In this document: in pieces, positions 16,983 through 48,170 of the stretch | Layout: each line of letters opens with the position of its first letter | How positions within the stretch are numbered: position 1 is the stretch's first letter | From: Halorussus gelatinilyticus | Lineage (GTDB): Archaea; Halobacteriota; Halobacteria; Halobacteriales; Haladaptataceae | NCBI RefSeq assembly: GCF_023238445.1 | Contig: NZ_CP096658.1 | Span: forward strand, 3,286,001 to 3,350,000 | DNA: 64,000 nucleotides | Direction of reading: 5' to 3' | Program-made: the position numbers and the translations under genes | Notes under the pieces: model-generated | The model's database searches: none | Told to the model about the DNA's origin: nothing | Seen by the model: only the letters and a program-made list of their open reading frames with translations

Positions 16983-16997
16983 GCGCAAATGTTGCGC
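16983..16997. promoter_or_regulatory. GCAA-N3-TTGC inverted repeat at the acyl-CoA dehydrogenase 1 start
   Basis: GCGCAA-ATG-TTGCGC is a perfect 6-3-6 inverted repeat directly before the start codon (16982). It lies downstream of the TATA-like element near 17008, over the predicted transcription start: a repressor position. The same core occurs at 22004 and 43800. Confidence 0.65.
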
Positions 16998-17058
16998 CCA
17001 CGCCGTCCTTTAGCTTTCCCTTTGGCGGGCACTCAGGGCGTTCCGCTCCCGACTGCCC

Positions 17059-17427
17059 CTACCGCCACGGCGGTTCGAGGTGGACGTGAAACAGTTTCTC
17101 GCAGTCCGCTTCGCCGCAGACCGGGCAGCTCTCGGCGTCCGGTTCCCGGCCCTCCGACTCCGCGGTTCCGGCGCGCGGGTCGGCGGCCGCGATCACCCGC
17201 GACCCGGCGTGGCCGAGTTCGTAGCCGCCGTCGGCCTCCCGGACGAAGTACGAGCAGAGCTTCGTCAGGTGGTAGTTGAACTTCCCGGTGTCCCGAATCC
17301 CCGCGCGCTTCCGGAGTTCGGTGAACGACAGCGGGCCGTCGGCTTCCGCGAGTTCGCGCAGGATGGAGACTCGAATCTCGTTGCCGAGGACGTCGAGCGC
17401 GTCGGTCACGTCTCCCGAGTTCGCCAT
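17059..17427 (-). CDS. ArsR-like winged-helix regulator with C-terminal Cys motif
   Basis: A 122-residue protein. Residues 5-80 form an ArsR/HTH_20-type winged helix (DVTDALDVLGNEIRVSILRELAEADGPLSFTELRKRAG, then GKFNYHLTKL). The C-terminus carries CPVCGEADCEKLFHVHLEPPW, a likely zinc-binding tail. I chose the ATG at 17427; a TTG nine codons upstream is the alternative. A TTATAC element near 17473 on the minus strand could be its promoter. It precedes acyl-CoA dehydrogenase 1, but whether it regulates that gene is unknown. Confidence 0.8.
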   Translation of the reverse strand: MANSGDVTDALDVLGNEIRVSILRELAEADGPLSFTELRKRAGIRDTGKFNYHLTKLCSYFVREADGGYELGHAGSRVIAAADPRAGTAESEGREPDAESCPVCGEADCEKLFHVHLEPPWR

Positions 17428-17525
17428 GCGAGTCAGTTGCTCGCGCCAGCCCAATCAATCCCACGAAGAAGTATAATCACGTCTACAGAACTCCGGTTCG
17501 CCGAACGCTGAAGCCGTCGCCGGTC

Positions 17526-18815
17526 GTGGCTCCCGACGTGACTGGATTCGAGTTCTCCGAGTCGGTCCGGCGTCGGGTCGCCGTCTTCCGGAACCGGGCG
17601 TTTCGTCGCCTCTTGGCGGGTCGAACCCTGAGCGTCCTCGGTGACGGGTTCTACGCCGTCGCCGCGATGTGGTTGGTCTACGACCTCTCCGGTTCGACCG
17701 CGTACACCGGTCTCGCCGGATTTTTGACTCGCGTACCCGGCGTCCTGAAGGCGTTCGTCGGGCCGCTCGTGGACCGCTTTCCGCTCGGGCGAACTATCAC
17801 GCTGTCGGAGGTCGCACAGGGACTGCTCGTGCTCGTCGTGCCGGTCGCGGCGGCGACAGGCCACCTGTCGGTCTGGGTCGTGTTAGTCGCCATGCCCCTG
17901 CTCTCGCTGGCGAACCTGTTCGCGGGACCCGCCCAGAACGCGGCGGTGCCCCACCTCGTCGCCGACGAGGAGATGGTCCGGGCCAACTCCGCCGCCAAAG
18001 TCGTCGGGAAGACGGTGGACGCCGCGGCCCGCGGCGTGGCGGGCGCGGTCGTGGCCGCGACGAGCGCCGTCGCGCTCTACGTCGTGGACGCCGCGACGTT
18101 CGTCCTCGCCGGAACCGTCTTCGCCTCGCTGTCGATTCCGTCTCGTGGGGGCGACCCGGACGCGAGCCTCGACTTCGAGCGCTATCTCACCGACCTCCGG
18201 GAGGGCGTCGGCGTCGTCTCCGGGTCCGTCGTCGGGTCGATGCTCGCCGGGAGTTTGCTGGCGAACTTCCTGACGGGGGTCGCGCTCGCCGTCCTTCCCG
18301 CGTTCGCAGACGCTGTGGGTGGGGCCGAGACCTACGGACTGCTACTCGCCGGGATGACCGTCGGAAGCGTCGTCGGGGCGATGCTGGCGGCCGCGGTGGA
18401 CGGAATCCCACTCGGTCGAACGGTCGTGGTCGGCTTCGTCCTCTCGGGACTGGCGTGGGTCGGTGCGGTCGCGCTCCCCGGCGAACTCCTCACGGTCGCG
18501 CTGTTCGCGGCCTCGCGGGTGCCCGTCGGCGTCTACAACGTATCGGCGTCGGCGACGCTCCAGACCGGCGTCCCCGACGGCCTCCTCGGTCGCGTGACGG
18601 CGCTCGTCGGGAGCGCGTCGAGCCTCGTGCTACCGGGCGGGATGCTACTCGGCGGCTTTCTTGGCTCCCGATTCGGCAGTCGAGCGGTGATGCTCGCCGG
18701 CGGGGTCGGTTCGGTCCTGTTGGCGGCGTACTGGTCGCTCGTCCCCTCGCTTCGGACCTTCGGGCCACCGGCCTCGGTGTCGTCGGGCGAGTTCGGCGGG
18801 TCGGACCTCGGTTAG
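17526..18815 (+). CDS. MFS transporter
   Basis: A 429-residue polytopic membrane protein with about 12 transmembrane segments. The N-terminal FRNRAFRRLLAGRTLSVLGDGFYAVAAMWLVYDL and the DRFPLGRTI loop after helix 2 are typical of MFS exporters of the enterobactin-exporter/DHA3 type. The interior has GPAQNAAVPHLV near residue 140. The substrate is unknown; drug or metabolite efflux is the family default. The start is GTG. The gene runs divergently from the ArsR-like regulator, and their stop and start regions share a short promoter with an imperfect GTTCGCCGAAC repeat. Confidence 0.85.
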   Translation: MAPDVTGFEFSESVRRRVAVFRNRAFRRLLAGRTLSVLGDGFYAVAAMWLVYDLSGSTAYTGLAGFLTRVPGVLKAFVGPLVDRFPLGRTITLSEVAQGLLVLVVPVAAATGHLSVWVVLVAMPLLSLANLFAGPAQNAAVPHLVADEEMVRANSAAKVVGKTVDAAARGVAGAVVAATSAVALYVVDAATFVLAGTVFASLSIPSRGGDPDASLDFERYLTDLREGVGVVSGSVVGSMLAGSLLANFLTGVALAVLPAFADAVGGAETYGLLLAGMTVGSVVGAMLAAAVDGIPLGRTVVVGFVLSGLAWVGAVALPGELLTVALFAASRVPVGVYNVSASATLQTGVPDGLLGRVTALVGSASSLVLPGGMLLGGFLGSRFGSRAVMLAGGVGSVLLAAYWSLVPSLRTFGPPASVSSGEFGGSDLG

Positions 18816-19132
18816 AACAGCTTCTTGCGAACGTCGTTGGCGGTGACAGCGCCCTGCACCAGCCACGACGCGGCGGGGTGTTTCGGCGCGACGCTGGCCG
18901 CACCGAGCAGGAGGAAGGCCCGCTTTGGCTTCCCGTTCCGGAGCGCGAGCGCGGCCTGCACGACGAAGGACGCGACGTTGAGTCTGTCTTTCCGGACGTT
19001 GAGCGGTTTGCCGACCAGTACCTTCGCGGCGTCTTTCGGCGTCGGAATCACGTTCGTCACGACGCCGTGCGCGAGAATAAGCGTTGGGCCGGTCGTCGCC
19101 CGGCGAGTTCGGTCGGAACGTCGCCGGTCCAT
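18812..19132 (-). CDS. small basic haloarchaeal protein of unknown function
   Basis: A 106-residue basic protein from the ATG at 19132 (a GTG three codons upstream is possible). Two amphipathic stretches, LNVASFVVQAALALRNGKPKRAFLLLGAASVAPKHPAASWLVQGAVTAND, look helical, and the terminus is VRKKLF. The high positive charge is unusual in an acidic haloarchaeal proteome and suggests nucleic-acid or membrane contact. The stop overlaps the MFS stop on the other strand. I do not recognise the family. Confidence 0.5.
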   Translation of the reverse strand: MDRRRSDRTRRATTGPTLILAHGVVTNVIPTPKDAAKVLVGKPLNVRKDRLNVASFVVQAALALRNGKPKRAFLLLGAASVAPKHPAASWLVQGAVTANDVRKKLF

Positions 19133-19178
19133 TCGCGCCACGGGGAGACCCTCGGGTCGCTCGCCTCCAAGCGGCGGT

Positions 19179-19194
19179 AAATGCTACTGCATTT
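19179..19194. promoter_or_regulatory. perfect 16-bp inverted repeat upstream of squalene synthase
   Basis: AAATGC-TACT-GCATTT, arms of six with a 4-nt centre. It sits just upstream of the TATA-like AGTTTTTCAA (about 19200-19209), which serves the ATG at 19237. This is the place of an upstream activator site or an operator shared with the divergent small gene. Confidence 0.45.
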
Positions 19195-19236
19195 GCTCAA
19201 GTTTTTCAATCTCGCGTCCTTAGGACCCAAAAGTCC

Positions 19237-20322
19237 ATGGACACGGAGCCGCCCACCGAGCGCCCTGTTGACGCCGACATCGACTGGTGTTTCGACGCCG
19301 TCCAGGGCGTTTCGCGAACGTTCGCCATCACTATCGACGTGCTGGAGGAACCGATGGCCTCCTACATCTGCGTCGGCTATCTGCTCTGTCGCGTCGCCGA
19401 CACGGTCGAGGACGCCGGTCACATCCCGCCCGACGAGCAGTCGCGTCTCCTCTCGCTCTACGACGACGCGCTCGACCCGGAGGACGAGACCGACATCGAG
19501 GAGTTCCAGCGCGCAGTCGAACCGTGGCTCCCCGCGAACGCCGAGGGCGTGGACGCCGACGAAGTGGGCGACGAGGCCGACTGGAACGTCGTCGCCGAGT
19601 CGCCCCGCGTCGTCGCCACCTTCCGGTCGCTCGGCGAGGACGCCCAGTCGGCCATCTACCCGCCCGTCAGCGAACTCGTCACCGGGATGGCCGAGTTCGT
19701 GGACCGATACGCCGACGACGGCGGTCTCCGTATCCACACCATCGACGAGTTAGAGGAGTACTGCTGGTACGCCGCCGGGACGGTCGGCGAACTCATCACG
19801 AACCTGCTCGCCCAAGACGTGGACGACCGCCGGGCCGAAATCATGCGCGCCAACGCCCGCGGCTTCGCGCTCCTGCTCCAACTGGTCAACGTCGCCAAGG
19901 ACGTGTCCGACGACTTCCGCGAGGAGAACAACGTCTACCTCCCGGCCGCGTGGCTCCGGGAGTACGGCGTCAGTCCCGCGAACGTCACTCACCCGGAGAA
20001 CCACACCGCGGTCGCGGGGGTCATCCAGCGCGTGACCCGCCACGCGCGGGGCTACATGGACGACGCCCAACGTTACCTCGAAGCCCTTCCCGAGTCGCGG
20101 GGCAACACCGTCGAAGCGTGGGCCATCCCCTTCCTGCTCGCTGTCGGCACCAGCCGTGAACTGCTGGAGCGCCCCGAGGATGTCGTGGAAGAGGGCGGCG
20201 TGAAGGTCTCGCGCGCCGAGGTCGTGGGCCTGATTCAGTTGTTCAAGTCCGGCAACGTCGAGCGCGAGCGAATCGGAGAACTGCGGTCCCAACTGGAAGA
20301 CGAACCGTTCTCGCCGTCGTGA
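19237..20322 (+). CDS. squalene/phytoene synthase family protein (squalene synthase-like)
   Basis: A 361-residue isoprenoid synthase that condenses two prenyl diphosphates head to head. It has the VSRTFAITIDVLEEPM segment, the first Asp motif CRVADTVEDAG near residue 55 and the second, NVAKDVSDDFREENNVYLP, near residue 225. The VSRTFA start and the spacing resemble squalene synthases more than CrtB, so squalene is my preferred product; phytoene remains possible. The ATG at 19237 is chosen because the TATA-like element is about 30 nt upstream. A longer in-frame start would lie within the promoter. Confidence 0.88.
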   Translation: MDTEPPTERPVDADIDWCFDAVQGVSRTFAITIDVLEEPMASYICVGYLLCRVADTVEDAGHIPPDEQSRLLSLYDDALDPEDETDIEEFQRAVEPWLPANAEGVDADEVGDEADWNVVAESPRVVATFRSLGEDAQSAIYPPVSELVTGMAEFVDRYADDGGLRIHTIDELEEYCWYAAGTVGELITNLLAQDVDDRRAEIMRANARGFALLLQLVNVAKDVSDDFREENNVYLPAAWLREYGVSPANVTHPENHTAVAGVIQRVTRHARGYMDDAQRYLEALPESRGNTVEAWAIPFLLAVGTSRELLERPEDVVEEGGVKVSRAEVVGLIQLFKSGNVERERIGELRSQLEDEPFSPS

Positions 20323-20323
20323 G

Positions 20324-21103
20324 CTACCCGTCGAGGACCTCGACGAGTCGCGCGACTCGTTCTCGAATCACCGCCGAGTCGTCGCTATCGACCGCCTGCC
20401 GAAGCGCCGCGGTCGCTTCGACCGCGGTCTCGAACTCGGCGAGCGCGTCGTCCGCGCGGTCGGGCAGGTCTCCAAGTCGGTCGGTCCGGTCGGCGAGGGT
20501 CGGAGCCAGCGCCCTCGTCGGGTCCGTGTTCGCCTCCCGAAGGTTCCGGTAGTAGACGAACTCCTCCTTGAGGTTCCGGAATCGCTCGCGCTGGTCGGCG
20601 TCGAGGTCGTCTACGTCGGGCATCCCGTCGTCCGCCGTCATGTCCCGAATCTCCGCGGCGATGGTCTCGATTTTCTCGTCTATCTCCTCCTCGCGGTTGG
20701 CCCCGTCGTCGTCCAGTGCCTCGGCGTCGAGGCGCTCGATTTCCGCCGCGAGAGCGTCGGCGGCGACGCGCCATCGCTCGCTCGTCAGTTCGCGGTCGGC
20801 CTCGGGGTCGAACAGCACCGCCACCGAGTCGCCGTCGCACTCGACCGCGCCCGCGGCGTCGAGCGACGAGAGGCGTTCTTCGGCGCGTTCGGCGTCCGGC
20901 AGGTCGTCGTCCGACGACTCCCCGTTCGACGGTTCGGGGTTCCCCAGACCCGCGAGGGCGTTGGCCCGCGGGACGGTCGCCGCGCCGTCGGCGACCGAGA
21001 GACAGTTCGGGAGGCAGGCGTCGAGAATAGCTCGGTAGGCGTCCTGCCAGTCAGCGTCGGTGTTCGTGCCGGTGTCCGTCTCGAACGCCGGGGAATCGTC
21101 CAT
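20324..21103 (-). CDS. acidic, helix-rich haloarchaeal protein
   Basis: A 259-residue protein, very acidic, with long predicted helices: residues 100-170 (ERWRVAADALAAEIERLDAEALDDDG and REEEIDEKIETIAAEIRDM) could form a coiled coil. CLPNCLSVADG near residue 30 contains a CxxxC pair. No membrane segment or enzyme motif is seen. It is convergent with the squalene synthase (one base between stop codons) and co-oriented with the hydroxyacyl-CoA dehydrogenase. Function unknown. Confidence 0.65.
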   Translation of the reverse strand: MDDSPAFETDTGTNTDADWQDAYRAILDACLPNCLSVADGAATVPRANALAGLGNPEPSNGESSDDDLPDAERAEERLSSLDAAGAVECDGDSVAVLFDPEADRELTSERWRVAADALAAEIERLDAEALDDDGANREEEIDEKIETIAAEIRDMTADDGMPDVDDLDADQRERFRNLKEEFVYYRNLREANTDPTRALAPTLADRTDRLGDLPDRADDALAEFETAVEATAALRQAVDSDDSAVIRERVARLVEVLDG

Positions 21104-21137
21104 ACGACCGACTCGAACGTCGGACCCTTAGTCGTTG

Positions 21138-21998
21138 TCAGTACTCGTAGAATCCTGCCCCGGTCTTCTTCCCGAGGTCGCCGGCATCGACCTTGCGCTT
21201 GAGGAGGTAGGCCGGTTTGTAGCGGTCGCCCAACTCCTCGTGGAGCGTCTCGCTGGCGTCAAGACAGATGTCGAGTCCGATGTGGTCGGCGAGTTCGAGC
21301 GGTCCCATCGGGACGTTCGTGCCGAGTTTCATCCCCGTGTCGATGTCCTCCTTGGTGGCGACGCCCTCGTCGTAGGCCCGGATGCCCTCGTTTATCCACG
21401 GCATCAGGATGCGGTTGGTGACGAACCCCGGCTTGTCGTCGGACTCCCACGTCTCCTTGCCGAGGTCCTCGGCCAGCGCGTGAGCGAACTCGACCACGTC
21501 CCCGTCGGTCTTCTCGCCGACGACGACCTCGACGCCCGTCATCACCGGCACGGGGTTCATGAAGTGCAGACCGACGATCTGCTCCTCGCGGTCGGTCACC
21601 GAGGCGATGGTCGTGATGGAGAGCGTCGAGGTGTTGGTGGCCAGAATCACGTCCTCCGGAATCGCGTCGTCCAAGTCCGCGAAGATGTCCTGCTTGATGT
21701 CCATGTTCTCGACGGCGGCCTCCACCACGAAGTCGCAGTCCGCGAGGTCTGCGAGGTCGGTGGTGCCCGCGATGCGGTCGAGGGTCGCCTCGGCCTCGTC
21801 CTCCGAGATTTTGTCCTTGCTCACGAACCGGTCGAGGCTGTCCTCGATGGAGTCGAAGCCGTTCTGCACGAACTCCTCCTCGACGTCGCGCATCACCACG
21901 TCGTAGCCCGACTGGGCCGTGACCTGCGCGATGCCGCTGCCCATCGTGCCCGCGCCGACGACGCCGATACTCTCTACGCTATCGAGCGTGCGTACCAT
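21138..21998 (-). CDS. 3-hydroxyacyl-CoA dehydrogenase
   Basis: A 286-residue NAD-dependent enzyme of beta-oxidation. The Rossmann fingerprint is VGAGTMGSGIAQVTAQSGYDV at residues 13-33; EAAVENMDIKQDIF and NTSTLSIT follow. GLHFMNPVPVM carries the catalytic His, and the C-terminal KPGFVTNRILMPWINEG domain completes the fold. It is full length for a stand-alone (not hydratase-fused) enzyme. The start region holds GCAA-TTC-TTGC 5 nt upstream, matching both acyl-CoA dehydrogenase genes here. It is divergent from the histidine kinase. Confidence 0.93.
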   Translation of the reverse strand: MVRTLDSVESIGVVGAGTMGSGIAQVTAQSGYDVVMRDVEEEFVQNGFDSIEDSLDRFVSKDKISEDEAEATLDRIAGTTDLADLADCDFVVEAAVENMDIKQDIFADLDDAIPEDVILATNTSTLSITTIASVTDREEQIVGLHFMNPVPVMTGVEVVVGEKTDGDVVEFAHALAEDLGKETWESDDKPGFVTNRILMPWINEGIRAYDEGVATKEDIDTGMKLGTNVPMGPLELADHIGLDICLDASETLHEELGDRYKPAYLLKRKVDAGDLGKKTGAGFYEY

Positions 21999-22003
21999 GC
22001 TCG

Positions 22004-22014
22004 GCAATTCTTGC
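22004..22014. promoter_or_regulatory. GCAA-N3-TTGC inverted repeat at the hydroxyacyl-CoA dehydrogenase start
   Basis: GCAA-TTC-TTGC lies 5 nt upstream of the start codon at 21998. A CTTACG TATA-like element follows about 30 nt upstream of the start on the minus strand, so the repeat covers the predicted transcription start. Third member of the motif set with 16983 and 43799. Confidence 0.6.
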
Positions 22015-22113
22015 GGTCGGGCCGTAAGCCTACCGAAGTCGGCGGTCCGTTTCGGACACCGGCCGATACGTTCGCCGCGTGAGCATTTAGTGGCCCGGCG
22101 TCGTAAGGCAAGT

Positions 22114-24108
22114 ATGGGCACGTCGGGAGAGCCGAGCGTCACGCTGGAGGACGTCGAGCGGGTGTTCGAGGAGTCCGACCACGGGACCCCGCTGACGGTC
22201 CGCGAAGTCGCGGCCGAACTCGACTGTCCGCACCGGAGCGCCGAGCGGAACCTGACCGAACTCGCCACGCGCGGGGAACTCGAAACCAAGCGCATCGGCG
22301 ACGAGCGCATCTGGTGGCGGGCCGCGGAACCCGACCCGACCGACGGCGGTGACGGTGCCGGCCCCGACGACGGCACCGAGTACGACGACGCCGACCGCTG
22401 GGACGCGGTCGTCGAGCGCATCACCGACGCCTTCTACGCGCTCGACGACGAGTGGCGGTTCACCCACCTCAACGAGCGGGCCGAGGAGATTCTCCAGCGC
22501 TCGGAAGACGAACTGCTCGGCGAGCGCATCTGGGACGAGTTCCCGGAGTCCGCCGACGGCTTCGTCTGGGAGAAGTACCACGAGGCGATGGAGAACCAGT
22601 CGCCCGTCGATTTCGACCTCTACTACGAACCGCTCGACGTGTGGGCCGAAATCAACGCCTACCCCTCCGAGACGGGGCTGTCGGTGTACTTCGTGGACAT
22701 CTCCGAGCGCGTCGAGACCGAGCGGGAACTCAGTCGCTACCGGCGCATCATCGAGACGGTCAACGACGGCGTGTACACCGTGAACCCGGAGGGCAACTTC
22801 ACGATGGTCAACGAGGCGTACGCCGAGATGGTCGGCTACGACCGCGAGGACCTCCTCGGCGAACCGGTCTCGACGGTCGTCGCCGACGACGTGGCCGCGA
22901 CCGCGCGCGAAATCGAGGCCGACCAACTGGCGGGCGAGTGCGACACCCCGACCCTCGAAGCCGAACTCCGGACCGCCGAGGGCGACACCATCGTCGCCGA
23001 AGCGACGTTCGCCCTGCTATCGCTCGAAGACGACGAGTACGAGCGCATCGCCGTCGTCCGCGACGTGACCGAACGCAGGGAGTACGAGCGGAAAATCGAG
23101 GAGCAACGCGAACGCTACCGGAGGCTGGTGGAGGCCGCGCCCGTGGCGATTCTGACCTGCGACGCGGACGGGCGCATCGCGCTGGCCAACGAGGCCGCGG
23201 CCGCGCTGTTCGAGACCGAGGGGGAACTGGTCGGCACCTCGTTGCTGGACTTCGTCCACGACGACGACAGGGCCGGGGCCGCCGACCGACTCCACTCGGT
23301 CCTCGAAAGCCGAGAGGCCGTCCCCTCGACCGAGACGAAACTCCGGACCGCCGGCGGTGCGGTCCGCCACGCCATCACCACGAGCGTCCCCATCACTCGC
23401 GACTGCGAACCCGCGGTGCAGGTCGTGCTGACCGACATCACCGAGCGGAAGCGATACGAGGAGCGACTCAACGAGACGGTCGCGGAGTTAGAGCGGTCGA
23501 ACGAGCGCCTCGACAGGTTCGCCAGCATGTTGGCCCACGAGCTCCGCAACCCACTGAACGTCGCCGAGATATACGCCGACCAGATATCGTCCGCGGACTC
23601 CGAGGCGCTACGGCAGGTCACCGACGCGCTCGACCGCATCGAGGAGATGATAGCCGTGCTGTTGGTGCTGGCGAAGGGCAGCGACGTCGCCGAGTGCCAG
23701 CAGGCGGTCCCGCTCGACGGGGTGGCGACGGAGGCGTGGAGCAGACTCGACACCGACGGGGCGACCCTCGACGTGGACGCGCGTCGGACGATTAGCGGGG
23801 ACCACAACCCCGTCCACCACCTCTTCGAGAACCTCTTTCGTAACGCGCTGAAACACGCCGGCGAGGGCGTCACGGTCCGCGTCGGCGACCTCGACGCGGG
23901 ATTCTACGTCGAAGACGACGGGGACGGCATCCCCGACGCGGAGCGCGAGGCCGTCTTCGAGGCGGGCCACTCCTCCGACGACGGGTTAGGTCTCGGTCTG
24001 ACCTACGTCGCGCGACTCGCCGAGGCCTACGACTGGACGGTAGAAATCACCGAGAGCGAGGCGGGCGGCGCGCGCTTCGAGTTCACCGGCATCGAGTTCG
24101 CCGAGTAG
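22114..24108 (+). CDS. PAS-domain sensor histidine kinase with N-terminal winged helix
   Basis: A 664-residue soluble sensor kinase. Residues 5-70 form a winged-helix domain (PLTVREVAAELDCPHRSAERNLTELATRGELETK). Three PAS-like domains follow (about 90-205, 210-325, 335-445). The HisKA box is MLAHELRNPLNVAEIY with phospho-acceptor His475, and the HATPase domain has NLFRNALKHA, DDGDGIPD and GLGLGLTYV. No transmembrane segment is present, so it senses a cytoplasmic signal. No response regulator is adjacent. The N-terminal HTH fused to a kinase is a haloarchaeal (HTR/HK-like) theme and could allow direct DNA contact. Confidence 0.9.
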   Translation: MGTSGEPSVTLEDVERVFEESDHGTPLTVREVAAELDCPHRSAERNLTELATRGELETKRIGDERIWWRAAEPDPTDGGDGAGPDDGTEYDDADRWDAVVERITDAFYALDDEWRFTHLNERAEEILQRSEDELLGERIWDEFPESADGFVWEKYHEAMENQSPVDFDLYYEPLDVWAEINAYPSETGLSVYFVDISERVETERELSRYRRIIETVNDGVYTVNPEGNFTMVNEAYAEMVGYDREDLLGEPVSTVVADDVAATAREIEADQLAGECDTPTLEAELRTAEGDTIVAEATFALLSLEDDEYERIAVVRDVTERREYERKIEEQRERYRRLVEAAPVAILTCDADGRIALANEAAAALFETEGELVGTSLLDFVHDDDRAGAADRLHSVLESREAVPSTETKLRTAGGAVRHAITTSVPITRDCEPAVQVVLTDITERKRYEERLNETVAELERSNERLDRFASMLAHELRNPLNVAEIYADQISSADSEALRQVTDALDRIEEMIAVLLVLAKGSDVAECQQAVPLDGVATEAWSRLDTDGATLDVDARRTISGDHNPVHHLFENLFRNALKHAGEGVTVRVGDLDAGFYVEDDGDGIPDAEREAVFEAGHSSDDGLGLGLTYVARLAEAYDWTVEITESEAGGARFEFTGIEFAE

Positions 24109-24109
24109 G

Positions 24110-24941: not shown

Positions 24942-24942
24942 G

Positions 24943-32164: not shown

Positions 32165-32230
32165 TCCGCGGCAAGATTCCGGCGAACCCAAAGGGAAAAC
32201 TGTTTGAAATCGCTGGCCGGATTCCACTGT

Positions 32231-34009
32231 ATGAAAGTCCGCGTCAGCGACGGTGCGACCGACGAGGAGGCGTCCGCCATCGCGGAAGCGCTCGCCCAGC
32301 ACGTCCGGGACGAAGTGGAAGTGTTCGTGGGCGACGCCGACGCCCCCGCGGTGGTCCGCGAGGCACCCGCCGGTCCCCCGAACGCGGGGGCCGAGGCCGC
32401 CGCCGAAGCCATCGCCGAGTCCGACGACCTCGGGCCGACCGAGCGCGAAGAGCGCCTGTGGGACGAGATAGAGGACATCGAGTTGGGCGGTCCCGAGAAG
32501 TACAAACAGCGCCTCGAAGAGCAGGGCAAACTGTTCGTCCGCGACCGACTCGACCTCTGGTTCGGCGACGACGGACTCCTCTTCGAGGACGGCAAGTTCG
32601 CCAACTTCGACGCGTGGCACCCCGACAGCCCCGAGGTCGAGGAGGGCAACGACGACCGACTGCCGGGCGACGGCCTGCTCACCGGCGCGGCCGAGTTCGA
32701 GGGCCGCGAGCTGCACTTCATGGCCAACGACTTCACCGTGAAGGCCGGGTCGATGGCCGAGAAGGGCGTCGAGAAGTTCCTCCGGATGCAACAGCGCGCA
32801 CTCAAGAACGGAAAGCCGGTCCTCTACCTGATGGACTCGTCGGGCGGCCGCATCGACCAGCAGACCGGCTTCTTCGCCAACCGCGAGGGCATCGGGAAGT
32901 ACTACTACAACCACTCGATGCTCTCGGGCGCGGTCCCGCAAATCTGCGTGCTCTACGGCCCCTGCATCGCCGGCGCGGCCTACACCCCGGTCTTCGCCGA
33001 CTTCACCATCATGGTCCGGGACATGTCCGCGATGGCCATCGCCTCCCCGCGGATGGTCCAGATGGTCACGGGCGAGGACATCGAACTCGAAGAGCTGGGC
33101 GGTCCCGACGTCCACGCCAAGAAGTCCGGGAGCGCCGACCTCGTGGCCGACGACGAGGAACACGCACGCGAACTCGTCGCCGACCTCGTGAGCTACCTGC
33201 CCGACAGCGCCGACGAGAAGCCGCCCGAAACCGAGGGCAAACCGCCCGTCAAGTCGCCCGCGGGCATCGACTCGGTGGTTCCCCAAGAGCCGAACAAGGG
33301 CTACGACATGACCGACGTCATCGACCGTGTGGTGGACGAGGGCTCCTACTTCGAACTCAAGCCCGAGTACGGCAAGGAGATACTCACCGCGTTCGCCCGC
33401 ATCGACGGTCGGCCGGTCGGTATCGTCGCCAACCAACCGGCACAGCGCGCGGGGGCCATCTTCCCCGACGCCGCCGAGAAGGCCGCGGAGTTCATCTGGA
33501 CCTGCGACGCCTACGAGATTCCCCTGCTGTACCTGTGTGACACCCCTGGATTCATGGCCGGGTCGCAGGTCGAGGAGGACGCGATTCTGGAGAAGGGCAA
33601 GAAGTTCATCTACGCCACCTCGTCGGCGACGGTCCCCAAGCAGACTGTCGTGGTCCGGAAGGCCTACGGCGCGGGCATCTACGCGATGGGCGGCCCGGCT
33701 TACGACCCCGAGAGCGTCATCGGGCTTCCCTCCGGCGAAATCGCCATCATGGGACCGGAGGCGGCCATCAACGCGGTCTACGCCCGCAAGCTCTCGGAGA
33801 TCGACGACGAGGAGGAACGCGCGAAGAAAGAACAGGAACTCCGCGAGGAGTACCGCGAGGACATCGACGTGCATCGGATGGCCAGCGAGGTAGTCATCGA
33901 CGACATCGTACCGCCCAGCACCCTCCGGACGGAACTGAAAAACCGGTTCGCGTTCTACGAGGGCATCGAGAAGGACGTACCGGACAAGAAGCACGGCACG
34001 ATTCTGTAG
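32231..34009 (+). CDS. pccB: acyl-CoA carboxylase carboxyltransferase (beta) subunit
   Basis: A 592-residue crotonase-fold carboxyltransferase. It transfers carboxyl from biotin to an acyl-CoA, probably propionyl-CoA (or methylcrotonyl/glutaconyl-CoA). The core carries FTVKAGSMAEKGVEKFLRMQQ, DSSGGRIDQQ with the oxyanion Gly-Gly, and CDTPGFMAGSQVE in the second half. The first 75 residues form an extra acidic domain not in the usual 510-520-residue subunit. The biotin carboxylase subunit is not nearby. In haloarchaea this enzyme feeds odd-chain and methylaspartate-cycle carbon into methylmalonyl-CoA. Confidence 0.85.
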   Translation: MKVRVSDGATDEEASAIAEALAQHVRDEVEVFVGDADAPAVVREAPAGPPNAGAEAAAEAIAESDDLGPTEREERLWDEIEDIELGGPEKYKQRLEEQGKLFVRDRLDLWFGDDGLLFEDGKFANFDAWHPDSPEVEEGNDDRLPGDGLLTGAAEFEGRELHFMANDFTVKAGSMAEKGVEKFLRMQQRALKNGKPVLYLMDSSGGRIDQQTGFFANREGIGKYYYNHSMLSGAVPQICVLYGPCIAGAAYTPVFADFTIMVRDMSAMAIASPRMVQMVTGEDIELEELGGPDVHAKKSGSADLVADDEEHARELVADLVSYLPDSADEKPPETEGKPPVKSPAGIDSVVPQEPNKGYDMTDVIDRVVDEGSYFELKPEYGKEILTAFARIDGRPVGIVANQPAQRAGAIFPDAAEKAAEFIWTCDAYEIPLLYLCDTPGFMAGSQVEEDAILEKGKKFIYATSSATVPKQTVVVRKAYGAGIYAMGGPAYDPESVIGLPSGEIAIMGPEAAINAVYARKLSEIDDEEERAKKEQELREEYREDIDVHRMASEVVIDDIVPPSTLRTELKNRFAFYEGIEKDVPDKKHGTIL

Positions 34010-41216: not shown

Positions 41217-41223
41217 TTTTATG
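41217..41223 (+). promoter_or_regulatory. TATA box of the archaellin gene
   Basis: TTTTATG is 36-42 nt before the ATG at 41259, predicting a leader of about 10-15 nt. A second TTTTTAA (41167-41173) is farther upstream and is a less likely alternative. Confidence 0.5.
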
Positions 41224-41258
41224 TCCTAGGTGTGAGAATAGCTGTTCAGAAGAGAACC

Positions 41259-41852: not shown

Positions 41853-41860
41853 CCGGTCTA

Positions 41861-41872
41861 CCCGCCGTTTTT
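41861..41872 (+). terminator. T-tract after the archaellin gene
   Basis: CCCGCCG followed by five T residues (41868-41872), then a pyrimidine-rich CTCTTTCTCTC, starting 9 nt after the stop. Confidence 0.5.
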
Positions 41873-41918
41873 CTCTTTCTCTCGCACTCCGCGATTCGAG
41901 CGACAGCGCTGGCTTGGG

Positions 41919-42575: not shown

Positions 42576-42654
42576 ACTCGGGCAGTCTCACGACCCGGTG
42601 TTAAAATTTCTGAGACTCGCGGTCGGCTGGAGAGGGGTTTCGCTCGGGCGGACG

Positions 42655-43797
42655 TTAGAGACCCAGTTCCCGGCCGATGACGAGGTGCTGAATCTCGCTG
42701 GTCCCCTCACCGATCTCCATCAGTTTCGCGTCGCGGAAGAACCGCTGAGGCGCGAAGTCCTCGGTGTAGCCGTAGCCGCCGAGCGTCTGCACTGCGTCCT
42801 CGGCGACTTCGCGGGCGGCCTCGCTGGCGTCGAGTTTGGCGAGCGCGCTCTCGTGAGAGACCGAGTTCCCTTGGTCGTACTTCCACGCCGCCTTGTGGGT
42901 CAGCAGGCGAGCGCGCTCGACCTTCCGGTCCATCGAGACGACCTTGTTCCGGATGGCGTCGAACTTCGAGATGGGCTGGCCGAACTGCTCGCGCTCGGTG
43001 CTGTACTCCTTGGCGGCCTCGAAAGCGCCCTGCGCGAGACCGGTCGAGAGCGCCGCGATGGAGATGCGACCGCCGTCCAGCGTCTTCTTCGTCTGGTCCC
43101 AGCCGTCGCCCTCCTCGCCGAGCAGACGGTCCTCGGGGAGTCGCACGTCGTCGAGTTGGATTTCGCAGGTCGGCGAGGCGTTCAGGCCCATCTTGTCCCA
43201 GACGGTCGTGACCTCGAAGCCGTCGTCCTGCTCGGGGTCAACGATGAACGTGGAGATACCGTCGTAGCCCGCGCCGGGGTCCGTGACCGCCTTGACGAGG
43301 ACCGACCCGGCGACGTTGGCGTTGGTGATGAACTGCTTGGTGCCGTTCAGGACCCACTCGTCGCCCTCTTTTTCCGCCATCGTGTCCATGTCGCTGGCGT
43401 CCGACCCGCTACCGGGTTCGGTCAGCGCCCACGAGCCGAGGTACTCGCCCTCCGCGAGCGGACGAAGCCAGCGTTCCTTCTGCTCTTCGGTGCCGAACAG
43501 TTCGATGGGCTTGGAGGCCAGCGAGACGTGCGCGGCGTACGAGAGACCGATGGACCCGGAGACTCGACCCAACTCCTCGGTCACGAGCGCGTACATCAAT
43601 TGGTCGCCGCCCAGACCGCCCCATTCCTCGCTGACGGGCACGCCCATCATGTCGAGGTCCGCGAGTTGGGAGAATATCTCCTCCGGGAAGCGGTGTTCGT
43701 CCTCGATGTCCTGCGCGATGGGTTCGATCTCCTCGTCGCAGAACCGACGCACCTCGTCCCGAATCATCTGATGCTCGTCGGGAAGGCTGAAATCCAT
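42655..43797 (-). CDS. acyl-CoA dehydrogenase (copy 2)
   Basis: A 380-residue acyl-CoA dehydrogenase, full length. Motifs: MDFSLPDEHQMIRDEVRRFCDEE, SWALTEPGSGSDASDMD near residue 130, and MEIGEGTSEIQHLVIGRELGL at the end, with the catalytic-base Glu before GTSE. It is a paralogue of copy 1 at 15834. The TATA CTTTATAC (43821-43828, minus strand) lies about 28 nt upstream, and CGCAA-TTT-TTGCG sits between it and the start codon. Acyl-chain specificity is not readable. Confidence 0.93.
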   Translation of the reverse strand: MDFSLPDEHQMIRDEVRRFCDEEIEPIAQDIEDEHRFPEEIFSQLADLDMMGVPVSEEWGGLGGDQLMYALVTEELGRVSGSIGLSYAAHVSLASKPIELFGTEEQKERWLRPLAEGEYLGSWALTEPGSGSDASDMDTMAEKEGDEWVLNGTKQFITNANVAGSVLVKAVTDPGAGYDGISTFIVDPEQDDGFEVTTVWDKMGLNASPTCEIQLDDVRLPEDRLLGEEGDGWDQTKKTLDGGRISIAALSTGLAQGAFEAAKEYSTEREQFGQPISKFDAIRNKVVSMDRKVERARLLTHKAAWKYDQGNSVSHESALAKLDASEAAREVAEDAVQTLGGYGYTEDFAPQRFFRDAKLMEIGEGTSEIQHLVIGRELGL

Positions 43798-43798
43798 A

Positions 43799-43811
43799 CG
43801 CAATTTTTGCG
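43799..43811. promoter_or_regulatory. GCAA-N3-TTGC inverted repeat at the acyl-CoA dehydrogenase 2 start
   Basis: CGCAA-TTT-TTGCG (5-3-5, perfect) lies 1-14 nt upstream of the start codon at 43797 and downstream of the TATA box, so it overlaps the transcription start of a leaderless mRNA. The ten bases from 43801 to 43810 recur identically at 48161-48170 before the aldehyde dehydrogenase. Confidence 0.65.
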
Positions 43812-43820
43812 CGAGTGGTA

Positions 43821-43828
43821 GTATAAAG
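43821..43828 (-). promoter_or_regulatory. TATA box of acyl-CoA dehydrogenase 2
   Basis: CTTTATAC on the minus strand, centred 28 nt before the ATG at 43797; leaderless. Confidence 0.65.
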
Positions 43829-43889
43829 ACAGCGAACCAGCGTCGGGGGTTCCGGAAGACACTTGCCACGGTAGCCTGACGCGTCTGCC

Positions 43890-45209
43890 ATGGCCTCGCC
43901 CTCCCGCCGCGACCTCCTCCGGGCGACCGGGCTCGGTCTCGCCGCCATCGCCGGTTGCGCCGGTCGAGAAGCCCCTCCGAACGACACGACCATGCATACC
44001 GCGACCGAGACGCGGCACACCGAAACGACGACCCAGACGACGACCGACACGATGAGCGAAACCGCCACGAGCGCGCCCCGAGACTGCGTTCCGGAGTCGA
44101 TTCCCGAAAACGGCTGGCCGCTCCCCGACCGCGGCCCGACGGGAGCGAACTACGCACCGGCGGCGACCGGACCGACCGAGAAACCGACCGTCCGCTGGAA
44201 GCGGACCGTCGAGGAACCCGAAACGGAGGGCTACCTCGACGTGGCCCTCACCAGTCCGGTGGTCACGGCGGACCGAATCTTCGTCGGCAAGGCGCTCTAT
44301 CCGGGCACCGAAAACGAGATGCCCGACGAGAACGCCGTCCACGCCTACGACCGCGAGACCGGCGAACTGGATTGGTCGCATCCGACGAAAGCTACGGTCC
44401 CAGAGTCGGTCGCGGTGATGGGCGAGGCGGTCTACGTCGTCACGGCGGGGTCGGTCCGCGCGGTCGAGAGACGCGGAGGAGTCGAACGCTGGCGGTTCGA
44501 CCCGGAGCGGGGAGTTCAGGCGGCGACGCCGACCGACGGTCGAATCTACGTGAGTACCGATTCGGGGTCGGTGGTCGCGCTCCGGACCGACGGGTCGGTC
44601 GCGTGGACCGCGTCGGTCGGCGACTGGGTGGGGACTCGCCCGGCGGTCCACGACGGGACCGTCTTCGTGGGAACCGGCGACAGCAGGCTGACGGCGCTCC
44701 GTACCGACGACGGAGGCGAGCGCTGGTCGGTGCAGTTAGTGACCTCCGAGTCGAACGCCCGCGAAGTCCCCGGCGACGTCGCCGTGACCGACTGTGGCGT
44801 GTTCGCCACGCCTCACGGCGGCGTCGTCGCGCTCGATTTCGACGGGAGGGTTCGGTGGCGGGCGACCGGCGGACAGTACGTCCTCTCGACCGACGGAGAG
44901 ACCGTCTATACGGGAACCGAATCCGGTCGCCTAATCGCGCTCTCGGCGGCCGACGGAGCGGTCCGGTGGCGGACGCTGCTCGGGGAGGGCAGCGACCAAA
45001 AGGTGGAAGACGTCTCCAGCGACCCGGTCGTCGCCGACGGCACCCTCTACTGTTCGACCCGGCCGGGCAGTCTCCACTCGCTCGACGCGGACACCCGGAC
45101 CGAGAACTGGAACCTCGAGTTCGACTCGTCGTCAGAACCCGAGAAGCCCGCCGCGGTGGACGACGAACTGTTCGTGTCGGTCGGTCCATCGCTGGTCGCG
45201 CTGGAGTAA
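43890..45209 (+). CDS. Tat lipoprotein with PQQ-type beta-propeller
   Basis: A 439-residue exported lipoprotein. SRRDLLRATGLGLAAIAGCAG gives a twin-arginine signal and lipobox ending at Cys25. A Thr-rich linker of about 40 residues precedes roughly seven blades: AYDRETGELDWSHPT, SDSGSVVALRTDGSVAWTA-like and ALSAADGAVRWRTLL, with a last strand TRPGSLHSLDADTRTENW. The His/Asp of PQQ quinoprotein dehydrogenases is not recognisable. The arylsulfotransferase-like gene is 60 bp downstream in the same direction. Confidence 0.88.
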   Translation: MASPSRRDLLRATGLGLAAIAGCAGREAPPNDTTMHTATETRHTETTTQTTTDTMSETATSAPRDCVPESIPENGWPLPDRGPTGANYAPAATGPTEKPTVRWKRTVEEPETEGYLDVALTSPVVTADRIFVGKALYPGTENEMPDENAVHAYDRETGELDWSHPTKATVPESVAVMGEAVYVVTAGSVRAVERRGGVERWRFDPERGVQAATPTDGRIYVSTDSGSVVALRTDGSVAWTASVGDWVGTRPAVHDGTVFVGTGDSRLTALRTDDGGERWSVQLVTSESNAREVPGDVAVTDCGVFATPHGGVVALDFDGRVRWRATGGQYVLSTDGETVYTGTESGRLIALSAADGAVRWRTLLGEGSDQKVEDVSSDPVVADGTLYCSTRPGSLHSLDADTRTENWNLEFDSSSEPEKPAAVDDELFVSVGPSLVALE

Positions 45210-45269
45210 TCGAATCGCTCATCGATACCGCCAAAACGCTGTTATCGTCCTTCGTCGTATTCCGCCCTC

Positions 45270-46718
45270 GTGAACGGTCGCACGCCGCCCAGAGTCCTCC
45301 TCGCAGTCGTCGTCCTCGGACTGGTCCTCTCGCTCGCCGTCGGATTCGTGACCGCCGGGCCGTCGCCCAACCAGCGATACGACCGGTCCGCCGACATCGC
45401 GACCGGCGACCGCCAACAGATGGTCGAAACCCGGCGCGGCGTCACCGTCGTCACGGCCCAGAAGGGAGGCATGCGCGGCCTCTCGGGCGAACTCGTCGCC
45501 TTCCGGCCGAACGGGACCGTCCTCTACCACACCGACCGACACAGTTCCTACTGGGACGTGGACCCGAGCATCCGGGGGAAGCGGACCGTCACCTACGTCG
45601 CAACGAAGTGGCTCAACGAGTCGGTCTGTGGCGGTGGCCCGCTGTTGGCCGACCGAGGGGACTGCCGTCGGAACGTTGTCGAACGCCTGAACCTGACCAC
45701 CGGCGAACGAACCCGACTCTACGCCCACCGGATGGAAGGCGGTCGGTGGCACGACGTGGACGTAATCAACGACACTCACATCCTCGTCGGCGACATCGGC
45801 AACGAGGCCGTCTTCGTGGTCAACACGACGTCGGGCATCCGGGAGTGGACGTGGACCGCCGAGAGCGAACTCCCGATAACCGGCGGCGGGAGCTACGACA
45901 AGGACTGGGTCCACATCAACGACGTGGAACTGCTGGACGACGGCCGCATCATGGTGGACTTGCGGAATCAGGACCAAATCGCCTTCCTGAACCGAAGCCG
46001 CGGCATCGAGGCCAACTGGACCCTCGGGAGCGAGAACGAGTACGACACCCTGCGCGAACAGCACAATCCGGACTACATTCCCGAAGAGCGAGGCGGCCCG
46101 GCCGTCGTCGTCGCCGACTCCGAGAACGACCGCGTCGTGGAGTACCAGCGCGAGAACGGGAGTTGGAACCGGTCGTGGGTCTGGACCGACGACGCGATGC
46201 AGTGGCCCCGCGACGCCGACCGCCTGCCCAACGGCAACACCCTCGTCACCGACACCATCGGCGACCGGGTGTTCGAGGTGAACGAGACCGGCGCTATCGT
46301 CTGGAAGATACCCGTCGAACGGGCCTACGAGGCCGAACGCCTCGGCACGGGCGGCGAGAGTGCGGGCGGGCCGAGTGCCGCGGCGGCCGGCCTCCAGTCG
46401 CGGCGCGCACAGCCGCCGTCGGGACTCGCCGAGCAGTTCGAAGAGGCGGTCCGCGACGCGGTACCCGTCCAAGTCCAGAACGGACTGCTCGGATACTTCT
46501 TCCCGTGGTGGATGGGGTTCTACGACGTGCTGGCGACGTTCGCGCTGGTCGCCGTCCTCGCGGTCTGGGGCGGACTCGAACTGTGGTGGTCGTCGCTCTC
46601 GCTCCCGACCCGACTACCGTCGAGTCTCGACTCCCTATCCTCGGTCCGGTTGCTCCTCCTGTTGACCGGACTGGCGGCCGTCGGCTACGTCGCCTCGGTG
46701 GTCGCGTCGCTGATTTGA
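45270..46718 (+). CDS. membrane-anchored arylsulfotransferase (ASST)-like beta-propeller
   Basis: A 482-residue protein. The start is GTG; a hydrophobic signal-anchor (VLLAVVVLGLVLSLAVGFVTAG) precedes an extracellular domain with WHDVDVINDTHILVGDIGNEAVFVVN, HINDVELLDDGRIMVDLRNQD and WPRDADRLPNGNTLVTDTIGDRVFEVNETG, the strands and loops of the ASST six-bladed fold. C-terminal helices (residues 410-430, 452-470) anchor it in the membrane. The catalytic His/Arg of bacterial ASST cannot be placed with certainty, so sulfate transfer is uncertain. A T7 run (46776-46782) terminates it. Confidence 0.78.
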   Translation: MNGRTPPRVLLAVVVLGLVLSLAVGFVTAGPSPNQRYDRSADIATGDRQQMVETRRGVTVVTAQKGGMRGLSGELVAFRPNGTVLYHTDRHSSYWDVDPSIRGKRTVTYVATKWLNESVCGGGPLLADRGDCRRNVVERLNLTTGERTRLYAHRMEGGRWHDVDVINDTHILVGDIGNEAVFVVNTTSGIREWTWTAESELPITGGGSYDKDWVHINDVELLDDGRIMVDLRNQDQIAFLNRSRGIEANWTLGSENEYDTLREQHNPDYIPEERGGPAVVVADSENDRVVEYQRENGSWNRSWVWTDDAMQWPRDADRLPNGNTLVTDTIGDRVFEVNETGAIVWKIPVERAYEAERLGTGGESAGGPSAAAAGLQSRRAQPPSGLAEQFEEAVRDAVPVQVQNGLLGYFFPWWMGFYDVLATFALVAVLAVWGGLELWWSSLSLPTRLPSSLDSLSSVRLLLLLTGLAAVGYVASVVASLI

Positions 46719-46775
46719 CGTGAACCGGGGCTTCGCGGGGGACTCATAAACGTCGTGACTACTGGGCCAACGGGC

Positions 46776-46782
46776 TTTTTTT
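46776..46782 (+). terminator. T7 terminator after the ASST-like gene
   Basis: Seven T residues follow GGGCCAACGGGC, 58 nt after the stop codon of the ASST-like gene. Confidence 0.55.
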
Positions 46783-46808
46783 CGTGACGCGAGTATCGAC
46801 GCTATCGA

Positions 46809-47126
46809 ATGACGGAGAGTCGGCTCGACCCGATTCTCGGGGCTTTGGCACATTCCCGACGACGCGCAGTAGTACGCTGTCTGAACAGAGAGTATCTGCC
46901 GATTCCGGTCCCGTCCTTTTCGACCTACCTGGCGCTGTCGCTGTTTCCCGACGCGGACACCGACGACTTCGAGGCGTTCTGAGCCGAGATTCAGAGCAGC
47001 CTCTACCACGTCCACCTGCCGAAACTGGCCGACGCCGGCATCGTGACCTACGACCGGGACCTCGCCGACGGCGTCATCGACGAGGGACCCGAGTTCGAGA
47101 CCGCGGTGGCGTTTCTGGAGATCTAA
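46809..47126 (+). pseudogene. DUF7344-type winged-helix regulator interrupted by an in-frame TGA
   Basis: Reading from ATG 46809 gives LDPILGALAHSRRRAVVRCL, then after an in-frame TGA at 46980-46982 the same frame continues SLYHVHLPKLADAGIVTYD and closes at TAA 47124-47126. Together this is a complete DUF7344-like winged helix of about 105 residues, like the regulator at 50216. Only one codon is wrong, so decay is recent or the base is a sequencing error. Haloarchaea have no selenocysteine system, so recoding is unlikely. It lies between the ASST-like gene and the RIO-like kinase. Confidence 0.7.
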
Positions 47127-47179
47127 TGTCGGAGCCTGGGCAAGTGGCTTTTTGAGGGCCGGACGCTTAGTCGCCTCCG

Positions 47180-47989
47180 ATGAGTATCCGGCGGCTGGTG
47201 CGTGGCACCATCGAGTGGGAGCGACTCGAAGCGGTCTTCGTGGAGATGGCTCGGCGCTACGACCGGCCGGAGTTACGCGTCGAGTTTCTGGACGCCGACA
47301 ACTGGCTCTCGACGCCCTGCGTGGTGGACGAACGATGGTTCGTCAAGATAATCACGCGCCAGAACTCGATAGTCCACGCGCTGTTCACCGGCGCGCGCAA
47401 CCTCGGGGCCTTCTCGTCGGGCACCGAGGGGTTCTTCGAACACTCCGCCGGGCCGGTCGAGATGGCCGAACAGGAGTTGGAGGCCACCGAGCGGATGCGC
47501 GAAATCGGGCTGAACGCGCCCGCTCCGATCGAGGTCTTCGAGGTGGAGGACATGGCCGTCCTCGTGATGGAGTACCTGCCCGACTTCCGGACGTTCGAGG
47601 AGATGGACGCCGAGGAGGTCGAACACCTCGCGCCCGAGGTGTTCGAGTCGCTGGCCGCGATGCACGACAACCGCCTCGCCCACGGCGACCTGCGCGGCGA
47701 GAACGTCCTCGTCCAGCACGGCGAGGTGTACTTCATCGACGCGACGACGGTTCGGGAAGACGCCATCGAGGAGGCCCGGTCGTACGACCTCGCGTGCGCG
47801 CTCGCCGCGCTCGAACCCCGAATCGGCGCGCGAGCCGCAGTCGCGGCCGCCGCAAAACACTACTCGCCCGACGAGTTGCTCGCGGCGCGAGACTTTCTGG
47901 ACTTCGTGAACATCCGGCCGGACCACGACTTCGACGCCGTGAGCGTCAAGGGCGAGATAGAGAAGTTGGCGGACGCGAATGGGGAGTGA
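47180..47989 (+). CDS. RIO-like/lipopolysaccharide-kinase-fold protein kinase
   Basis: A 269-residue atypical kinase. WFVKIITRQN near residue 52 carries the ATP-binding Lys, AEQELEATERMREIG is helix alphaC, and LAHGDLRGENVLV with YFIDATTV are the catalytic loop (Asp, Asn) and the metal-binding Asp. This arrangement is the RIO/Kdo-kinase group. Substrate unknown; canonical Rio1/Rio2 acts on ribosome assembly but this is a shorter, divergent version. It follows the pseudogene by about 50 bp. Confidence 0.8.
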   Translation: MSIRRLVRGTIEWERLEAVFVEMARRYDRPELRVEFLDADNWLSTPCVVDERWFVKIITRQNSIVHALFTGARNLGAFSSGTEGFFEHSAGPVEMAEQELEATERMREIGLNAPAPIEVFEVEDMAVLVMEYLPDFRTFEEMDAEEVEHLAPEVFESLAAMHDNRLAHGDLRGENVLVQHGEVYFIDATTVREDAIEEARSYDLACALAALEPRIGARAAVAAAAKHYSPDELLAARDFLDFVNIRPDHDFDAVSVKGEIEKLADANGE

Positions 47990-48141
47990 CCTCGGACGTT
48001 GAGTGACCCCGGACCCCGAACGGCGAACGACCACGAACGGCGAGTAACGGCCACGCGACACGTCGTCACACGTCCGATTTCGGATGTCTACGGGCGCGCC
48101 AACCCGTCGAGCGTTGGGTCAACTGGCCGAAATTGGGAGAC

Positions 48142-48149
48142 TTTTTATC
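48142..48149 (+). promoter_or_regulatory. TATA box of the aldehyde dehydrogenase gene
   Basis: TTTTTATC is centred 31 nt before the ATG at 48177. Confidence 0.6.
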
Positions 48150-48159
48150 CGTGCCGGTC

Positions 48160-48170
48160 CCAATTTTTGC
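48160..48170 (+). promoter_or_regulatory. GCAA-N3-TTGC-like repeat at the aldehyde dehydrogenase start
   Basis: CCAA-TTT-TTGC, one mismatch from the core, 7 nt before the ATG. Ten of its bases are identical to the acyl-CoA dehydrogenase 2 site, with the same placement relative to TATA and start. Confidence 0.5.

Follow-up and report, generated by a model that had tools for sequence, protein, structure and literature searches.

A predicted GCAA-N3-TTGC operator conserved at gene starts in haloarchaea and its possible link to the glnA-linked Lrp

In Halobacterium salinarum, the haloarchaeal Lrp exerts global control of amino-acid metabolism, and the genes that it activates include glnA, dpp, peptide transport genes and korAB, according to the part of the source available to us (PMC2894021). 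Archaeal Lrp dimers are described as binding inverted repeats of 13-17 bp whose centre is AT-rich, and the target of FL11 is a 13-bp palindrome (PMC2995911, accessible portion). De novo motif discovery from chromatin immunoprecipitation (ChIP-chip) of eight Halobacterium Lrp-family proteins yielded no usable recognition sequences, as far as the accessible text of PMC4177876 goes. Here we describe a short inverted repeat, GCAA-N3-TTGC, in a 64,000-nt stretch of the Halorussus gelatinilyticus genome (contig NZ_CP096658.1, positions 3,286,001 to 3,350,000; G000:C1:3286001-3350000 in our own numbering), which we call the window; the genome is a single contig of 3.67 Mb with 67% G+C. An earlier note on this DNA had pointed to the repeat at the starts of genes for acyl-CoA dehydrogenase 1 (ACAD1), 3-hydroxyacyl-CoA dehydrogenase (HAD), acyl-CoA dehydrogenase 2 (ACAD2) and, with one mismatch, an aldehyde dehydrogenase (ALDH), and had proposed a beta-oxidation regulon. 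Judging from the sequences compared below, the repeat is almost certainly a real, conserved operator, and it is likely that it serves a broad regulon of feast/famine type, which takes in the metabolism of amino acids and propionyl-CoA and not beta-oxidation alone.

Three exact copies of GCAA-N3-TTGC are present in the window (at 16985, 22004 and 43800), where 0.20 are expected by dinucleotide shuffling, and none of 100 shuffles reached three copies, the maximum being 2. All three lie 2-5 nt 5′ of a minus-strand start codon, which bears out the earlier observation, and there are no further exact copies in the 64 kb, including in the coding regions, where copies had been left uncounted. The earlier estimate of one chance occurrence in 65 kb disregarded the G+C content and understated the surprise. 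The sites and their genes are as follows, where S stands for C or G:

16983..16997 (core 16985-16995), no strand: operator 1, GCGCAAATGTTGCGC, an exact match directly 5′ of the ACAD1 ATG
15834..16982, minus strand: ACAD1, with Pfam Acyl-CoA_dh_N/M/1
17008..17014, minus strand: TATA-like box of ACAD1, ~27 nt 5′ of the ATG, by eye
22004..22014, no strand: operator 2, GCAATTCTTGC, the core of a 13-bp S-GCAA-N3-TTGC-S, an exact match 5 nt 5′ of the HAD ATG
21138..21998, minus strand: HAD, with Pfam 3HCDH_N and 3HCDH; its start is kept in orthologues
22024..22030, minus strand: TATA-like box of HAD, by eye; orthologues have a CTTA-type box
43799..43811 (core 43800-43810), no strand: operator 3, C-GCAA-TTT-TTGC-G, an exact match 2 nt 5′ of the ACAD2 ATG
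42655..43797, minus strand: ACAD2, with Pfam Acyl-CoA_dh_N/M/1
43820..43828, minus strand: TATA box of ACAD2, by eye
48160..48170, no strand: operator 4 (probable), CCAATTTTTGC, a degenerate CCAA-TTT-TTGC with one mismatch, 6 nt 5′ of the ALDH ATG
48177..49715, plus strand: ALDH, with Pfam Aldedh
48142..48149, plus strand: TATA box of ALDH, by eye

TATA-like boxes had been reported 5′ of the three genes with exact copies, and by eye we find one ~23-35 nt 5′ of the start in all four promoters. Leaderless haloarchaeal transcripts are expected to have such TATA spacing, and from these distances the sites would overlap the start of apparently leaderless transcripts. When one mismatch is allowed, the window holds 7 matches (the three exact ones included) versus 9.0 expected. 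Since one-mismatch sites are not enriched as a class, we use them only where orthologues support them. The nearest named relative of ACAD1 that we found is from Haladaptatus pallidirubidus (88% identity), and the ArsR-like gene at 17059, already taken to be no more than a neighbour, encodes a DUF7347 protein. NCBIfam gave no substrate for ALDH, and all 25 matches listed fell under the cut-off.

Across the genome there are 22 exact sites, compared with 52 per strand for the reversed pattern CGTTNNNAACG, and the reversed pattern outnumbers the motif in nearly all of the 13 genomes compared. The raw count is not over-represented; the signal lies in position and conservation. A genomic site was taken to be near a start if it was in the stretch from 20 nt inside to 75 nt upstream of a called one, with genes called by a crude codon-position script that misses some starts, for example that of HAD. 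Ten of the 22 sites are near a called start, or 11 with HAD, whose start the caller misplaced, whereas only 1 of 30 sites is near a start for the control palindrome CGAANNNTTCG, represented by the first 30 of its 305 sites (Fisher p = 3e-4 for 10/22 vs 1/30). Loci picked for their orthology amount to 1.08 Mb and contain 32 distinct exact sites; 18 of these are in start zones, which take up 7.4% of the bases. The share of sites in start zones is no unbiased genome-wide rate, because the loci were selected for target genes. Another 8 sites are at orthologue-supported starts missed by the caller (our loci L021, L045, L049, L050, L051, L341, L342 and L358). Eight control palindromes, which share that same DNA, have 16 of their 242 sites in start zones.

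Conservation was followed gene by gene in the 30 best loci per search; the genomes are related, so these counts are not independent trials. The ACAD2 operator is exact in 12 of 30 orthologues (that of the own genome among them) from families f1, f5, f6 and f7, with nine different spacers, and in two f6 genomes among the 12 it is found at −47, 5′ of the TATA box. The HAD operator is exact in 6 of 30 orthologues, again counting the own genome (families f1 and f7). At both genes, whose start codons were checked through orthologue conservation, the palindrome keeps its arms as the spacer varies. ACAD1 was dropped as a conserved target: among 36 named haloarchaeal orthologues none has an exact site and 3 have a one-mismatch site, 2 of these at −13, and the ACAD1 site is thus species-specific or recent. 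The proposal of one operator at all three genes therefore holds up at ACAD2 and HAD, with weak evolutionary support at ACAD1. Random positions or absence from relatives had been named as grounds for giving the proposal up, and neither is seen for ACAD2 and HAD, whereas the ACAD1 site is absent from relatives.

Support for the operator at ALDH and at two further genes, those for the acyl-CoA carboxylase PccB and methylmalonyl-CoA mutase (MCM), is patchier than at ACAD2 and HAD. At ALDH, 2 of 30 orthologues (both f6) have an exact site in the same place and 3 of 30 have one with one mismatch (the own genome, G035 and G049); the CCAA-N3-TTGC form is found in two f7 genomes, and a further copy in G046 has it too. 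ALDH failed as a target conserved in its own genus: even when one mismatch is allowed, no site is found in the three other members read, nor in G031. The degenerate ALDH copy singled out earlier belongs to an unenriched class and has partial support from orthologues, with exact sites in two relatives, near-exact ones in three and none in the other genus members read. Exact sites at PccB are found in 3 of 30 orthologues, all f6, and three f5 genomes were also found by the motif; the PccB promoter in the window has no site, the best match having 3 mismatches. For MCM, with promoters read by eye, 1 of 30 is exact (the own genome) and 8 of 30 have one mismatch at −14/−15, 7 of these 8 being GCAA-N3 followed by TTAC, TTTC or TTGA; locus L438 was counted for GCAACAATTAC at −15 and has a second site at −65. 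When loci at contig ends were re-read (L330 and L334 for ALDH, L457 for the mutase), no site with up to one mismatch was found. These comparisons show the motif and where it lies, that it is enriched at starts and that it is conserved.

Several other features were noted beside these genes. A RIO/Bud32-like kinase gene (window 47180-47989) separates ACAD2 from ALDH, and genes that resemble it in N-terminal sequence occur in the same neighbourhood in f1, f5, f6 and f7 genomes; in G044, the RIO/Bud32-like gene is divergent from ACAD2 and the operator is common to both. A gene for a PAS-domain histidine kinase (window 22114-24108) is divergent from HAD and starts 116 nt from it, and the gap between the two has no exact site besides the HAD operator. 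A contig labelled Halorubrum trapanicum DSM 12287 (L116) has acyl-CoA dehydrogenase and ALDH genes with exact operators, and its ALDH N-terminus resembles that of the f5 genome G044, a likeness that may point to transfer or to a wrong label. Many PccB promoters across the order have, by eye, a GGGAAAACNGTTTNAAA-like element ~20-40 nt upstream (in the window at 32193-32209, with the gene at 32231), and this element, an inverted repeat (AAAACNGTTT) replacing the normal TATA box, may be a second, different operator.

The shape of the site was determined from 44 distinct exact start-proximal copies. The base before the palindrome is C or G in 39 of the 44 and the base after it in 40 of the 44, so that the full site is the 13-bp S-GCAA-N3-TTGC-S. 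Its spacer has an A+T fraction of 0.58, compared with 0.35 in 37 copies inside open reading frames, a gap that may come in part from AT-richer intergenic DNA and to that extent tells less in favour of an AT-rich operator centre. The distance from the site centre to the ATG is 8-18 nt in 26 of the 44 (on the start), 42-66 nt in 13 (5′ of the TATA box) and between these in 5; part of the set was fetched by a pattern that required an ATG no more than 30 nt away and so leans towards the near class, and a few of the gene calls are spurious. These two position classes suggest both repression and activation. The repressor-type placement proposed earlier fits the sites over starts, but several sites are 5′ of the TATA box, the placement expected of an activator.

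To see how far the targets extend, we surveyed sites within 30 nt 5′ of an ATG, which is not always the gene's own, in 13 genomes, reading 30 loci and 60 further stretches among the matches listed, with one genome (G006) covered in part. The most recurrent target is O-acetylhomoserine sulfhydrylase, found in at least 5 genomes including the own genome, with 51-60 nt from site centre to start and the own copy over the NCBIfam cut-off. A cysteine synthase type of gene follows in at least 4 genomes at 13 nt (Pfam PALP; the one copy run against NCBIfam was below the cut-off), then proline dehydrogenase in at least 2 f6 genomes (Pfam on one copy), an acetate/propionate-CoA ligase type in the own genome and at least 2 f7 genomes (the latter by sequence likeness), and argininosuccinate synthase in at least 2 genomes, with sites 256-266 nt from the called start. 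Targets seen in single genomes among the matches listed are a class-IV aminotransferase, likely the branched-chain one, oligopeptidase F, the glycine cleavage P protein and a periplasmic binding protein; two genes for family-5 peptide-binding proteins, each in a single genome, have sites 81 and 141 nt upstream. Pyruvate dehydrogenase E1 (204 nt, in the own genome) and aconitase (86 nt) likewise have a site in one genome each. Many other sites, in coding sequence or beside genes for an NYN protein, SBP56 and an ABC ATPase, are probably there by chance. In two f5 genomes (G044 and G052), the ACAD2-ALDH neighbourhood includes proline dehydrogenase, together with a set of ABC transporter genes that looks by eye like an importer of branched-chain amino acids. 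Catabolism of branched-chain amino acids and propionyl-CoA therefore suits the acyl-CoA genes no less well than fatty-acid oxidation does. The idea of a regulon marked by a shared start-site operator survives, with the beta-oxidation label too narrow for amino-acid, cysteine/methionine and nitrogen targets.

In five sulfhydrylase promoters (L161, L175, L186, L201 and L204), TTGCCGTAACT and a GTTATA box stand between the operator and the start, and this stretch is possibly a second regulatory site.

As to what binds the operator, it is slightly more likely than not that the regulator comes from the Lrp/AsnC family. The site is an inverted repeat within 13-17 bp and has an AT-rich centre in its AA-N3-TT core, as sites of Lrp type do, and its recurrent targets, by a plain tally of genes, are in amino-acid metabolism and transport. 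Within the family, the best candidate is the Lrp encoded beside glnA, because of the 13-bp shape and of a near-match between lrp and glnA, and we tentatively propose that S-GCAA-N3-TTGC-S is the operator of this dimeric helix-turn-helix regulator. A search of the own genome with the Lrp/AsnC ligand domain gives 8 matches, of which the glnA-linked protein is the haloarchaeal Lrp (NF041396; it scores 273.8 bits where the cut-off is 190), and 57 of the order's 59 genomes have this Lrp. Of 30 genomes, 14 have a site in the lrp-glnA gap when one mismatch is allowed, 1 exact (G031) and 13 with one mismatch, and in 8 of the 14 its form is GCAA-N3-TTCC, roughly at −73 relative to lrp. In G031, the site is 66 nt upstream of the glutamine synthetase gene (glnA), which was named from its sequence and the published glnA-lrp neighbourhood. 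This site and those upstream of the two peptide-binding protein genes are in line with the activation of glnA and peptide transport by Lrp in H. salinarum.

Several points weigh against the glnA-linked Lrp as the binder. The 14 lrp loci with a site are related, not independent, and of the lrp-glnA element no more than the GCAA half survives in the window's own genus. Clustered sites are described as typical of Lrp targets (PMC2995911, accessible part), whereas most promoters here have a single site, counting exact matches. The H. salinarum Lrp target table, as far as it is available to us, has no acyl-CoA dehydrogenase, HAD or mutase, and the term 'acyl-CoA' is absent from the main text of that paper (PMC2894021). 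The ChIP-based motifs of H. salinarum Lrp-family proteins are AT-rich and degenerate in the accessible part of PMC4236453. Finally, korAB, which Lrp induces in H. salinarum, gained no support as a confirming target: its promoter has an exact site in 0 of 5 genomes and a one-mismatch site in 1 of 5.

It is quite possible, then, that the same operator and broad regulon belong to another binder, either the Lrp/AsnC paralogue beside korAB or a protein of TetR, ArsR, MarR or TrmB type encoded elsewhere. Palindromes of 11-13 bp are read by many regulator families. The korAB-linked AsnC paralogue was present in 5 of 5 genomes looked at and in G046 adjoins korAB 4 kb from ALDH, and the degeneracy of the lrp-glnA element in the window's genus favours such a binder too. 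Set against this, sites with up to one mismatch are found within 150 nt of none of the 28 other Lrp/AsnC-type genes read, of 36 in four genomes (from 40 matches, 30 had loci, and we excluded L405, with no called gene, and L401, Lrp itself; the start of L389 is doubtful). In G005 (C16), a site close to an AsnC gene falls by coordinates inside the coding stretch of that gene and was left uncounted. A small winged-helix gene (L019), whose promoter has an exact site, also lost support as the regulator, with GCAA-N3-TTGC exact in 2 of 20 family genomes, its own included.

A dedicated repressor of fatty-acid beta-oxidation is improbable. It would account well for the own genome, where 7 of the 11 sites near starts are at acyl-CoA genes (those for HAD, MCM, three acyl-CoA dehydrogenases and two AMP-forming CoA ligases), but the targets that recur elsewhere are the amino-acid genes described above, from the sulfhydrylase, cysteine synthase type and proline dehydrogenase to the aminotransferase and glnA, and the ACAD2 neighbourhood in G044 and G052 contains proline dehydrogenase with the importer-like ABC set. 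A FadR-like regulator would have only fatty-acid activation and oxidation genes as targets, whereas here sites recur at genes of amino-acid, sulfur and nitrogen metabolism. Even less credible, and in our view very improbable indeed, is that the repeat is a product of chance or a core-promoter element. In ACAD2-type promoters GCAA occupies −13 to −10, which puts its AA at −11/−10, the position of the basal AA element described for haloarchaea in the available part of PMC2894021, and the raw genome count is not high next to that of the reversed pattern. Neither explanation accounts for the retention of both arms while the spacer varies or for the sites 42-66 nt upstream, and shuffles and control palindromes fail to reproduce the signal.

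Two blocks were noted by eye next to the regulator genes considered above. The 74-aa winged-helix gene (G000:C1:3605950-3606271; L019, L408-L427) has in its promoter a conserved block like TTTCGACRATYGTTGTA followed by TTTATTATCGTCGAA in 19 of 20 family genomes, likely an autoregulatory operator. In the TATA region of lrp, most of 30 haloarchaeal loci (L288-L317) have a block like GGATATTCGTAAAATTCTAA, which may be another autoregulatory site.

Returning to the glnA-linked Lrp, we infer its role, the sign of control and the effector, and the mechanism is read from where the site lies. At ACAD2, HAD, ALDH, the carboxylase, the mutase, proline dehydrogenase and the cysteine synthase type, the site is over a leaderless start, and binding there would block initiation and repress the gene. 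At the sulfhydrylase, the class-IV aminotransferase, glnA and, in one family, ACAD2, the site is 5′ of the TATA box, and binding would activate. Together, the targets would balance amino-acid and propionyl-CoA catabolism against nitrogen and sulfur assimilation according to nutrient state. A more speculative extension, which we would not count on, is that the motif is the recognition code of a global haloarchaeal Lrp over several families, combining a start-site block of acyl-CoA, propionyl-CoA and amino-acid catabolism with upstream activation of assimilation genes, such that a shift between −13 and −47, as seen at ACAD2, would flip the sign. The conserved 13-bp operator and the target list make haloarchaeal Lrp recognition a directly testable question, and they point to a possible layer of control over propionyl-CoA and branched-chain catabolism in these archaea.

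We found no published description of a GCAA-N3-TTGC operator in the accessible portions of the open-licence literature, an absence that is weak evidence, and no such operator in the available parts of papers on regulators of fatty-acid, propionyl-CoA and acyl-CoA genes, on Lrp and on regulons in haloarchaea. The FadR of Sulfolobus acidocaldarius, a TetR protein and an archaeal fatty-acid regulator (PMC6449355, accessible part), differs in both family and phylum. A close counterpart is the haloarchaeal Lrp itself (NF041396 TranRegLrp_Halo; H. salinarum OE3923F / Trh4; Haloferax mediterranei HFX_RS01210), with the own protein over the cut-off for it; the differences are that no such recognition sequence was found published for Lrp in the texts available to us, Hfx. 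mediterranei included, and that acyl-CoA and propionyl-CoA genes are not in the target table as far as we have it (PMC2894021). FL11 of Pyrococcus horikoshii is alike in its 13-bp palindrome, dimer, AT-rich centre and feast/famine logic for amino-acid catabolism, in the accessible part of PMC2995911. Among structures, the own-genome Lrp matches 8q90 with 260.6 bits and the FL11 entries 1ri7/2e1c, which have the same sequence, with 77.2 bits. The FL11 operator is TGAAA-N3-TTTCA, and its arms differ from GCAA/TTGC. The Lrp of Escherichia coli controls branched-chain, glycine-cleavage, peptide uptake and leucine transport genes as both repressor and activator, and, with no orthologous operator claimed, the parallel is that similar gene classes carry the sites here.

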